Part shown: one piece after another, positions 1-37,530 of the stretch
How the letters are laid out: each line of letters begins with the position of its first letter
Numbering within the stretch: the first letter of the stretch is position 1
Origin: a virus
Virus record (IMG/VR): IMGVR_UViG_3300028417_000011
Span: 1 to 37,530 of that record
DNA: 37,530 nucleotides
Strand: one strand, 5' to 3'
Position numbers and translations under genes: made by a program
Notes under the pieces: model-generated
The model's input: only the letters and a program-made list of their open reading frames with translations
Database searches by the model: none
What the model was told of the DNA's origin: nothing

Positions 1-120
1 GTTTGTATAAGATTTGTGAGACCTAAAATCCGAAGGATTTTCGGTTTAAGCAAATCGGTTTGTTAGTATGTTTATCGTTTTGTTTCAAATCAAATTTAAG
101 CATAAATTTTATACGGTGTT
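1..120. repeat. attC-like hairpin element A (cut by window edge)
   Basis: This non-coding stretch ends at the GTT of the opening arm of the first host cassette. It holds a perfect small hairpin (AAAATCC 25-31, loop GAA, GGATTTT 35-41). An outer stem pairs GTATAA near position 5 with TTATAC near 109-114. The architecture, an outer GTATA/TATAC stem enclosing CCGAAGG-type mini-hairpins, matches element C at 36976-37100. Its 5' end lies outside the window. The integron-like reading is inferred from geometry; no integrase is visible. Confidence 0.5.
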
Positions 121-132
121 GGCATTAGTTTA

Positions 133-877
133 TTATTCTTTAAATAAACTTAAAAAAGATATGGTGTTTTCAATTTTAAGTTGAACACTTGGATTATCTA
201 TTGATTTATTGTCAAGTTTAAATGTATCAATAATACCTTGTGAAGCATTTTCGAAAGCTTTGGAATTTAATAATTTTTCACTTAATTTAAATACATATTC
301 CTCTTCTTTTATATTTGTTTTATATGGAACTTTATATTTAATAGCATATTTTAATAGAAAATTTAAATTTTTATCATTTTTAATTAAATCATTAATAATT
401 GAATTATCTATAACAGAACCAGCCCAATTTTGATTTTCAGCTTTATTGTGAGCATCTATGATTCCTCTACCATAAAGGCATCTAACAGAATAAGAACCTC
501 CTTTTTTATTCTCACTATTTCCATTTACAAATCGTATTTTTCCTTTTATTATAGAACCTCTGACAGGGAAATTATAAGAGACTTGTTTTCTGTTGAATTC
601 ATAAGAGACTTTTATTAGTTCTTTGAGTGCTTCTATACTACATTCATTAGTCCAAAATACAATTGTATCAGAAATATTTATGCAATTTAATGTTGAATTT
701 GAAACATCTGCCAATATTAGCCCAGACATTGGTTTTTCATAGTTACCTAAACTTAATGAAAATTCTATATCTCGAAAAACATGCCCCATTCTTCTAAATT
801 AGTATTTCGTCTTCATTGTTTAAAATGAACTCCTTAAAACCTAAAAGGTCGAAATATGCCAAATAAACTTCTTTCAT
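133..877 (-). pseudogene. Class III nucleotidyl cyclase-like protein, frameshifted
   Basis: The main frame (133-789, 218 codons) carries a cyclase-homology-like pattern: an ISDT motif after a hydrophobic strand, then FPVRGSIIKGKI, then a GRGIIDAHNKAE...NWAG segment. It lacks the family's opening strand. That strand is present just upstream in another frame: an ATG at 877-875 opens 27 codons including AYFDLLGFKEF, the usual start of these proteins, and stops at 796-794. A one-base shift around 790-800 would join them smoothly. The gene is therefore either broken by an indel or affected by a sequencing error. The catalytic metal residues look degenerate even in the intact frame, as in many proteins of this group, so enzymatic activity is uncertain. 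It is the second gene of host cassette 1. Confidence 0.6.
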
Positions 878-909
878 TTTTAGATTTTTAAAACCAGTGT
901 TAAACTTGT

Positions 910-1215
910 TTAATAAATGGAATCGTGAACAGGTAAAAGCATTGGTGCTCCATCCGTATCTTTGTAAAATGTGTCATAACCATTAATCTGACTTATGTTT
1001 ACATCAATAATTTGACCTGAATTTATTTTAACATTTATAGAACCGTCTTCATTTAGGGGAACTAAACCATAATTTTTATTCAATTCAAAACTGTCAATTA
1101 ATGGTTTTTCATTAGCGTATGTTTTTGGTATGAGTTCTAAATCTTTTAAAGTCATAAAAGTTAAATTAATTGCTATGATTGTTAAAACTCCTTTGGTGTA
1201 AGTGTCGATTTTCAT
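910..1215 (-). CDS. Small membrane-anchored hypothetical protein
   Basis: This 101-residue protein has a hydrophobic segment near residues 8-24 after a short polar N-terminus (MKIDTYTKG), which suggests a single N-terminal anchor or uncleaved signal. The rest is polar, with strands such as NVKINSGQIIDVNISQ, and would lie outside the membrane. I do not recognise the family. It is the first gene of host cassette 1, about 36 nt inside the opening arm and 33 nt upstream of the cyclase-like pseudogene, so the two were probably transcribed together. Confidence 0.6.
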   Translation of the reverse strand: MKIDTYTKGVLTIIAINLTFMTLKDLELIPKTYANEKPLIDSFELNKNYGLVPLNEDGSINVKINSGQIIDVNISQINGYDTFYKDTDGAPMLLPVHDSIY

Positions 1216-1258
1216 TTTTACTTATTTATAAAATTTATATTTTGTATTAATTAATGCC

Positions 1259-1301
1259 AACGGTTTAGGCTAGGAAAAGTTGCGATTGGTAAATCGTACT
1301 T
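1259..1301. repeat. attC-like hairpin element B, left half (interrupted by prophage)
   Basis: The sequence runs from AACGG into GGAAAAGTTGCGATTGGTAA and ATCGTACTT, where it stops abruptly. The missing half is at 36186-36270. Joined across the phage, the two halves rebuild a stem GGAAAAGT/ACTTTTCC plus CGATT/AATCG. The same element is intact, in inverted hairpin orientation, at 37406-37528. The final TACTT (1297-1301) is one copy of the phage target duplication. Confidence 0.7.
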
Positions 1302-36185: not shown

Positions 36186-36270
36186 TACTTTTCCGATGTT
36201 TATCGTTAGTTAGTAAAGTTAATCGTTTTTCTGTAATCAACATAATTTAGCAATTTTTTTAGCCATTGTT
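36186..36270. repeat. attC-like hairpin element B, right half
   Basis: The stretch begins with TACTTTTCC, the other copy of the TACTT duplication and the missing arm of the hairpin at 1271-1301. It ends CAATTTTTTTAGCCATTGTT, matching the end of the intact element D (TTTAGCAATTTTTTATGCGCGTT). Total length with the left half is about 120 nt after removal of one target copy. Confidence 0.7.
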
Positions 36271-36978
36271 AGGCATAGTTTTTTAATTCCAAATTTGAGA
36301 TATTATACTCATTTTCAATTAAATCAAGAGATGTTTCTTTAATGTATTTCCATTTTTCTATATGCCTTGACACTAAAAATGCACTTGTAAAATCTGTAAA
36401 AAAGTGCAATCTATTTCTTTGTTGGTTAATTTTTTTTAGTTCAAATAATAATTGACTATCAAGATTTAGATATTTCTGATAATTTTCATTTAGAGTATGT
36501 GCATAATTTATTGTCGAACAGTTCTCATAAAAAGCTCCGTAAAACTCATTGTTGCGGTCAAATAAATTTACTGATTCAAGTTTGTTTTTAAAAAAATCTG
36601 ACATTTTTATTGGGATTCCGCTATTTTGTAGTTTACTGATTTTTTTGTTAAATTTTGGATTCACTTTATGTACAATTATTCCTTTTTTTAATAATTGGGC
36701 TTTATTAAAAGTTTCAAATGCAACCGATATTTTAATATAATCTATCAACTTTTCTCCATATGATGTTTCCCAATAAATTTTAAGTTTATCTTCTTTTTTG
36801 TCTGATTTTAATTGTTTACAATATTCTTTGAAATTTTTAAATATATAAACGTTTTTTATTGTTCTCAATGAGTTATGTAATAGTTCATTAATTAAAAATA
36901 AGCTATGAATTGATTTTGCTTGATAAGCTACTATATCTTTACTGTATTTTGGTCGCATTTCGTCAAATTATGCCTAAC
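36268..36978 (-). other. Host gene cassette 2 (integron-like, one leftward gene)
   Basis: GTTAGGCATA at 36268-36277 and TATGCCTAAC at 36969-36978 are perfect inverted repeats. They obey the integron core consensus GTTRRRY (GTTAGGC) and RYYYAAC (GCCTAAC). One leftward gene fills the space; it starts 11 nt inside the arm and its stop codon TAA lies within the other arm. This is a textbook cassette geometry; the integrase is not in the window. Confidence 0.6.
36269..36958 (-). CDS. Hypothetical protein, cassette cargo
   Basis: This 229-residue helical protein (MRPKYSKDIVAYQAKSIHSLF...) is lysine- and asparagine-rich. KKINQQRNRLHFFTDF near residue 180 resembles the RNxxxHF signature of HEPN-like helical proteins, but the spacing is not exact, so this is only a hint. 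It has no signal peptide and no other recognised family. Its last codons TAT GCC TAA are part of the cassette arm. Confidence 0.6.
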   Translation of the reverse strand: MRPKYSKDIVAYQAKSIHSLFLINELLHNSLRTIKNVYIFKNFKEYCKQLKSDKKEDKLKIYWETSYGEKLIDYIKISVAFETFNKAQLLKKGIIVHKVNPKFNKKISKLQNSGIPIKMSDFFKNKLESVNLFDRNNEFYGAFYENCSTINYAHTLNENYQKYLNLDSQLLFELKKINQQRNRLHFFTDFTSAFLVSRHIEKWKYIKETSLDLIENEYNISNLELKNYA

Positions 36979-37100
36979 GTCCGGTATATAATTTCGTTAC
37001 GGACAAATCCGATAGGATTTTTCCGTTTAGAAACCAAATATAGCAAATAAGTGTGAAATTCCGATAGGAATTTCAGCCGTAATGAATTATATACCTTGTT
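36976..37100. repeat. attC-like hairpin element C
   Basis: The element runs from AAC to GTT, about 125 nt. The stem GGTATATAATTTCGTTACGG (36983-37002) pairs with CCGTAATGAATTATATACC (37077-37095), with one bulge and one mismatch. Two perfect hairpins with identical GATA loops lie inside: AAATCC/GGATTT (37005-37020) and GAAATTCC/GGAATTTC (37055-37074). Size and bulged palindromy match integron attC sites. Confidence 0.6.
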
Positions 37101-37408
37101 AACTGGCGTTATTTATCTTGTTTCTGCTTGGTTCTTTTTCAGCTCGTAGCATACAAATTGGTTTAATTTTAAGATTTCAGATTAGGTTTTGTTCAAAAGC
37201 GTGCAAATCCGATGACTGAATTTCGCAAAATAGGAGAGGAGTCGCAATTAAAAAACCAATTTTCAAAAATAAATCTTTTTCACAAGCAATTAATTCCGAT
37301 TAAGGTTAGCGAGGGTCGGCATTCCGGATTAAATTTCAGTTTTTTTCGGGAGCGATTTATTCCGCCCTGTTTGCGTTAGATTTTCTCTGTTTTTTTATGC
37401 CAGTTAAC
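37098..37408. other. Host cassette 3, without a gene
   Basis: GTTAACTGGC (37098-37107) and GCCAGTTAAC (37399-37408) bound 311 bp in which I see no credible coding frame. The content is moderately GC-richer than its surroundings with stretches such as GCGAGGGTCGGCATTCCGG and GGGAGCGATTTATTCCGCCC. ORF-less cassettes are known in large chromosomal integrons; the function of this one is unknown. Confidence 0.5.
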
Positions 37409-37528
37409 GGTTTAGAGCATGAAAAGTACGATTTATCAATCGCAACTTTTCACTTGTTAAATTTAGTTATTTTATTTGTTAGAAACATTCTGTTTTCCTT
37501 GATTTAGCAATTTTTTATGCGCGTTGTT
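37406..37528. repeat. attC-like hairpin element D (intact copy of the phage target)
   Basis: AACGGTTTAGAGC leads into a hairpin GAAAAGT-CGATT/AATCG-ACTTTTC (about 37419-37451) and ends TTTATGCGCGTTGTTAG, ~120 nt in all. It aligns end to end with the reconstructed element B, providing an unoccupied reference for the insertion site. Confidence 0.6.
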
Positions 37529-37530
37529 AG

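Follow-up and report, generated by a model that had tools for sequence, protein, structure and literature searches.

Integrons are systems that stockpile and shuffle genes, antibiotic-resistance genes among them, and the question raised by this locus is whether the small modules near its two ends are gene cassettes of such a system and, if so, which recombinase would move them. The window, by which we mean the whole stretch of 37,530 nucleotides that was analyzed, is the complete contig C224 of a 3.44-Mb draft genome in 448 contigs (about 91% complete). The sequence-only reading had described three modules with perfect 10-bp inverted ends running from GTT to AAC, spaced by hairpins of about 120 nt, and this description proved exact. 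Cassette 1 (118-1261, minus strand) has the arms GTTGGCATTA and TAATGCCAAC at 118-127 and 1252-1261; cassette 2 (36268-36978, minus strand) has GTTAGGCATA and TATGCCTAAC at 36268-36277 and 36969-36978; and cassette 3 (37098-37408, minus strand) has GTTAACTGGC and GCCAGTTAAC at 37098-37107 and 37399-37408. That reading had also noted that a single module fits the integron consensus GTTRRRY, which holds, the fitting arm being GTTAGGC. At position 11, all three cassettes have A on the start side and C on the end side.

The open reading frames of the cassettes encode 218 aa (133-789) and 101 aa (910-1215) in cassette 1 and 229 aa (36269-36958) in cassette 2, none of them with a family match, while cassette 3 lacks a convincing ORF. 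Searches with Pfam, PHROG and PADLOC returned zero matches for the window cassette proteins, as did an Rfam search of the window. Among the 248 other genomes of the family, no relatives of the 218-aa ORF were found, and the 229-aa ORF has one relative (54%), in genome G094, where the homologue has no arms and lies outside any array. All window cassette genes are on the minus strand, so that a hairpin follows downstream of each gene, in the manner of integrons, which the earlier reading had not noted.

Cassettes 1 and 2 are separated by a Mu-like transposable prophage of about 34.9 kb (1302-36185), with matches to MuA-type transposase, MuB, Mu portal/protein F, terminase and capsid, subterminal inverted repeats, and a 5-bp target duplication, TACTT, on either side (1297-1301 and 36186-36190). 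The prophage, which is not part of the cassette system, lies within an attC-like site, E2, and splits it into a left portion (1259-1301, minus strand) and a right portion (36186-36270, minus strand; 87% identity to an uninterrupted relative on contig C191). Given the TACTT flanks and the match of the rejoined E2 to the uninterrupted C191 relative, the three modules constitute one array with four sites, in the order E4-cassette 3-E3-cassette 2-E2-cassette 1-E1; modules 1 and 2 are neighbors once the prophage is discounted, a point absent from the earlier reading. With the prophage removed in silico, the three modules chain at a spacing of 117-119 nt and form two linked pairs, against 0.095 modules per shuffle and no chained pairs in 200 dinucleotide-preserving shuffles. 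The prophage also has tail genes and, near its right end, a DNA methyltransferase gene, and its Mu portal is fused with protein F and a PBECR2 nuclease domain.

The remaining attC-like sites are likewise on the minus strand. E1 (1-120), the site of cassette 1, is truncated at the contig end, has L'' GTATAA and L' TTATAC, and is part of the covarying alignment A2. E3 (36975-37101) has a fold z-score of -5.7 and a match of 68.9 bits to R1, the covariance model described below, whose training set includes E3. E4 (37405-37530) runs to the other contig end. Hairpin repeats enclose both ends of the contig, another point that the earlier reading lacked, and the assembly of this genome breaks within such repeats.

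Further copies occur elsewhere in the same genome. A BLAST search with E4 as query gave weak partial matches only, and a rule-based hairpin scan returned chiefly chance matches; the same was true of a search with the 10-base pattern CTAAACCGTT, which nevertheless pointed to contig C301. The minus strand of this contig, the end of which is 97% identical to E1, holds a second array; one of its cassettes, with arms GTTACCCAAC and GTTGGGTAAC, carries an outer-membrane-type protein gene, and a second has the arms GTTGGGCAAA and TTTGCCCAAC. Intact or decayed site copies are also present on C282, C191 and C288, some of them (C191, C288) solitary and degenerate. As separate observations, a C301 cassette protein (L083 141-971) shows a weak match of 16 bits to HamA of the Hachiman defence system, and a decayed, apparently solitary E2-type site in the region C191:34471-36298 (L118 14867-16694) adjoins a gene pair that resembles umuD/umuC, as judged from the translations.

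The structure of the sites was assessed on an alignment of 13 copies read on the bottom strand, that is, opposite to the genes. The alignment supports a fold that combines AAC/GTT ends with an L stem and an inner hairpin, with 28 pairs in total, 15 of which show changes on both sides; paired cells amount to 85%, a share that is 73.5% in shuffles and does not exceed 48% in slid controls. The bottom-strand structure had been named by hand and held under this covariation test, a first attempt with RNAalifold on the gene-strand alignment having returned no structure. Across the 13 reference copies, the L stem, which tolerates bulges, contains 28 G.T cells on the bottom strand versus 3 A.C cells. 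In genome G040, when sites were folded in the form they would take in a cassette circle, the bottom strand was better folded than the top in all 47 of 47 sites, with a mean of 9.8 of the 10 arm positions paired. The sites are thus imperfect palindromes of the attC type, with L''/L' and an asymmetry that favors the bottom strand. This bias is seen in folding, and the bottom strand would presumably also be the one used in recombination.

To what extent are such arrays present in related organisms? The covariance model R1, built from the 13 copies of the window's genome and applied with up to 14 candidates scored per genome, has matches in 208 of the 249 genomes from the window's family, Flavobacteriaceae. 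The best genomes contain long one-strand arrays, of about 68 kb with 71 full sites in G040, about 67 kb in G068 and about 58 kb in G101, so that family arrays reach about 70 kb and about 70 cassettes. As the training copies of R1 came from the window's genome, the cassette rule was also examined independently of the model. Adjacent cassettes of G040 have arms of 9-10 bp in 50 of 62 cases, and the arms of mismatched cassettes agree to that length in 1.2%, which bears out on a much larger array the earlier claim that arms match within and differ between cassettes. In 335 of 338 modules, drawn from 25 arrays, the arm measures 9 or 10 bp; at position 11, 92% have A at the cassette start and 80% have C at its end. 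The arm length is sharp because this A/C combination is a mismatch on the gene strand; on the bottom strand it forms a G.T pair. The sequence-only reading had taken the 10-bp arms as a sign of a non-classical system. That argument is weak, because pairing over 9-11 nt is also seen in known attC sites (PMC2727003), and arm length alone is not unusual. The R box is another matter, as GTTRRRY is found in 8.7% of 254 distinct arms.

A sense ORF is present in 56 of 60 G040 cassettes, and the ORFs mostly end within about 25 nt of the arm. The typical cassette consists of a single sense gene and, behind it, an attC-like hairpin of about 120 nt, although some cassettes have two genes or none. These are features of integrons: complementary GTT/AAC R boxes, present in 3/3 window cassettes, and tandem, co-oriented cassettes in which the gene ends just before the attC. 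Sampled cassettes of G040 encode DUF4253, RDD-family and WapI-like immunity proteins.

In G040, G068, G101 and G175, a tyrosine recombinase of the XerA/IntI superfamily, about 375-400 residues long, heads the array, on the same strand as the cassettes. Around 20 further recombinase genes of this kind we counted 93 R1 sites, all of them downstream of the gene and in a single orientation, compared with 4 sites, 3 of them in one place, in 20 random regions of equal size. At 80 named loci from GTDB genomes, 95 R1 sites were found, with one orientation in 95/95 and a downstream position in 93/95; arm chains, which require no model, occur at 33 of the 80 loci, versus 2 pairs in shuffled sequence. 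Sixteen main-clade loci extend 2.5 kb or more downstream of the gene, and an array is present in 14 of them. Many other recombinase contigs stop a few hundred bases past the gene, as the repeats would cause. For more distant relatives (Pontibacter, Rufibacter, Arundinibacter, Draconibacterium, Flavobacterium and others), 26 loci had enough flank; R1 hits or arm chains were seen at 19 of these and no array at the other 7, so that not every relative of this recombinase is an array integrase. A profile of the array recombinase matches in 162 of the 249 family genomes and in 109 of 365 phylum genomes, many of the matched proteins in the latter being without the N-terminal domain described below. 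In Lacinutrix neustonica HL-RS19 (L286 9989-11120), the recombinase beside a long array seems to be fragmented across frames while the array looks intact, possibly reflecting a recent loss of the integrase.

Linkage between integrase and array is thus observed in relatives, the window's own draft genome having yielded no recombinase of the array type among its 448 contigs (about 91% completeness). Two recombinase halves on C119 and C445 were considered for this role and rejected, as they represent the housekeeping xerC cut at a contig break. The window's array is hence, at present, an integrase-less piece, and both it and the C301 array correspond, on the draft assembly, to the definition of a CALIN, namely at least two attC sites with no integrase nearby.

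The identity of the array recombinase was examined by profile, motif, phylogeny and structure. XerA, known for resolving dimers at dif sites and not as a cassette recombinase, provides both the closest curated profile and the closest solved fold (NF040815; PDB 5hxy, 4a8e): array recombinases score 211-235 bits against NF040815, with a cut-off of 220. Against the integron integrase profile TIGR02249, they score 187-213 bits in two separate pieces, short of the cut-off of 265, whereas the positive control, IntI1 of plasmid R388, scores 507 bits. The motifs KGxxxR and HxLRH lie 58-59 residues apart in 103 of the 104 recombinases measured and 100 apart in 20/20 measured IntI, and the IntI insertion of about 42 residues, represented by an unmatched stretch of IntI4, is absent from the array recombinases. 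It should be mentioned that this IntI-specific additional domain, or patch, is used as a criterion for integron integrases (PMC2426708). The catalytic residues are conserved. In the tree, 21 IntI form a single clade with a support of 100/100, and the array recombinases all fall outside it. An AlphaFold model of the array recombinase (pLDDT 84.5) compares to XerA 5hxy with Z 25.1 and an rmsd of 13.5, the alignment covering the structures in parts only, and to IntI4 2a3v with Z 22.1 and an rmsd of 3.8 over 264 residues.

Array recombinases of Flavobacteriaceae also have an extra N-terminal region of about 95 residues, modeled as a domain with pLDDT 90.8. Matches to Pfam HARP (E 0.0021, 2/25) and DUF5710 (E 3e-5, 5/25) were obtained for a few members only, a comparison of the model with XPB gives Z 6.5 and an rmsd of 2.2 over 57 residues, and a Foldseek search with the domain returned no significant match; the modeled fold may hint at kinship to HARP/XPB, and we treat these similarities as leads. 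In L173 (18478-19608) and its relatives, residues 1-75 appear as a small beta-beta-alpha repeat type with an invariant Trp, and in shorter relatives that head arrays (L289, L293, L302) the N-terminal domain is missing from the match.

These results bear on the alternative that survives best, which we nevertheless consider very unlikely: that the window holds a classical integron array, in which an ordinary IntI absent from the assembly moves the cassettes, i.e., a plain CALIN. The anatomy is that of integron cassettes, the window's draft is incomplete, and canonical IntI does exist elsewhere in the phylum, above the TIGR02249 cut-off in 98 of 365 genomes. None of these 98 belongs to the window's family, however, and IntI was found in 0 of its 249 genomes although the sites are present in 208. 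Moreover, a different recombinase heads the arrays, R1 matches nothing around 20 IntI genes or on R388, and few R boxes conform to GTTRRRY. A cassette system with an integrase other than IntI is the reading that agrees with these observations, and the earlier suggestion of integron-like cassettes with a non-classical recombinase is supported by the array-linked enzyme outside the IntI clade.

IntI integrons, both class 1 and chromosomal (TIGR02249, NF011946), likewise have attC-type hairpins with a GTT/AAC core, arm pairing within each cassette, co-oriented genes, a tyrosine recombinase and an attI-like site at one array end, and a better-folded bottom strand. Here, in contrast, the recombinase is without the insertion, scores below the cut-off, branches outside the IntI clade and, in Flavobacteriaceae, bears the extra N-terminal region, its gene reads toward the array, the R box is seldom GTTRRRY, and position 11 carries the A/C signature. 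The real departures from classical integrons are the integrase, the R-box consensus and the conserved position 11. In Treponema integrons the integrase gene also points at the array, but the enzyme is an IntI (PMC3607928). CALINs (PMC9024848, PMC7923331) resemble the window's array in having several sites and an integrase absent from the assembly, but they are called with attC models of IntI systems, and the window's sites belong with another recombinase lineage.

Evidence for mobility was sought in cassettes repeated or shared between genomes. Within single arrays, identical cassettes recur with differing neighbors: a 644-bp cassette occupies four places in G101, and repeated cassettes of 612, 709 and 470 bp are present in G068, G028 and Lacinutrix, respectively. 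Between genera, G101 and Winogradskyella ursingii have a common cassette that is 99.9% identical over 916 bp, bounded on the left at C|GTT and ending on the right just past the next CGTT, and their recombinases are only 37% identical. G061 and G175 have a common 430-bp cassette with both ends at CGTT. In both pairs the bounds lie at C|GTT even though the flanking attC-like sites differ in sequence. Some other duplications end inside a hairpin or a gene, as expected where alignments enter a shared repeat or where homologous recombination also acts. Taken together, the duplications, the cross-genus sharing and the C|GTT breakpoints suggest that cassettes move as units. The sequence-only reading had named two observations that would count against it, a genome with no further modules following the same boundary rule and boundaries that do not move together; instead, modules of this type are present in the window's genome and throughout the family, duplicated and shared cassettes shift as units, and the covariance-model search that it proposed, with its look for a linked tyrosine recombinase, yielded arrays with such a gene at their head in relatives.

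The head of the arrays shows a comparable breakpoint. The first cassette begins about 40-65 nt past the recombinase stop codon in Flavobacteriaceae, and about 100 nt past it in Flavobacterium, and is preceded by a palindrome, for example GTGGATATAG..TATATCCAATT, followed by GTT. Five genomes are alike up to ..CCA(A/G)TTG|TTG and divergent beyond, which fixes the breakpoint at G|TT. Judging from these alignments, the palindrome is probably an attI-like site.

A second alternative, slightly less credible again than an ordinary IntI, is that the hairpins are dispersed palindromic repeats, REP- or MITE-like or of the terminator type, which lie between genes by chance, the cassettes being immobile. 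It would explain why the hairpins are repeated, AT-rich, stable and located just past stop codons, and why some copies, such as those on C191 and C288, are solitary and degenerate, but the 10-bp complementarity is cassette-specific and joins the ends of gene modules, not the ends of the repeats, duplications take in the gene and break at C|GTT, and the arrays start at one recombinase. The least probable alternative, that homologous recombination between near-identical hairpins grows the arrays while the adjacent recombinase serves another role, could draw on duplications that cover several cassettes (2.6 kb in G109) and on those with ends inside repeats, but it is at odds with the C|GTT bounds of the G061/G175 and G101/Winogradskyella cassettes between differing sites and with an attI-like junction that has the same G|TT breakpoint without an adjoining hairpin repeat.

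We therefore propose that the modules represent gene cassettes and that the system to which they belong resembles an integron but uses an integrase other than IntI, a reading to which we assign a probability of about 0.88 on the basis of comparative sequence analysis. The recombinase would bind the folded bottom strand of an attC-like site, through the R arms and the L stem. This site would be joined either to a second attC-like site or to the attI-like palindrome, in double-stranded form, that lies immediately 3' of the recombinase gene; strand exchange would take place at G|TT, releasing cassettes as circles and inserting them beside attI. The conserved G.T wobbles of the bottom strand correspond to A.C mismatches when the top strand folds, and would favor folding of the bottom strand, by which, we propose, the orientation of the cassettes would be fixed. 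Cassette recombination is deduced from comparison between genomes, and strand use, circles and catalysis are predicted steps of this scheme.

More broadly, these arrays probably represent a second integron lineage that extends across Bacteroidota and is common among Flavobacteriaceae. Its integrase would be XerA-like, would lack the IntI-specific domain and would recombine cassette sites that are folded and single-stranded; IntI itself may form a single branch within a larger group of cassette recombinases. A survey with IntI and attC models recorded one complete integron in Bacteroidetes proper, in Salinibacter ruber (PMC9024848). Our literature search, the scope of which excluded preprints and most subscription journals, found no published description of such a system, and it seems that a widespread second kind of integron has so far been overlooked. 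If this is true, current tools leave unnamed an integron platform whose recombinase is present in 65%, and whose sites are present in 84%, of the sampled Flavobacteriaceae genomes, and a large reservoir of mobile cassettes has been missed. The IntI insertion would then not be essential for recombining folded single-stranded sites, and the origin of integrons would become testable, as one could ask whether IntI emerged from inside a broader set of cassette recombinases.
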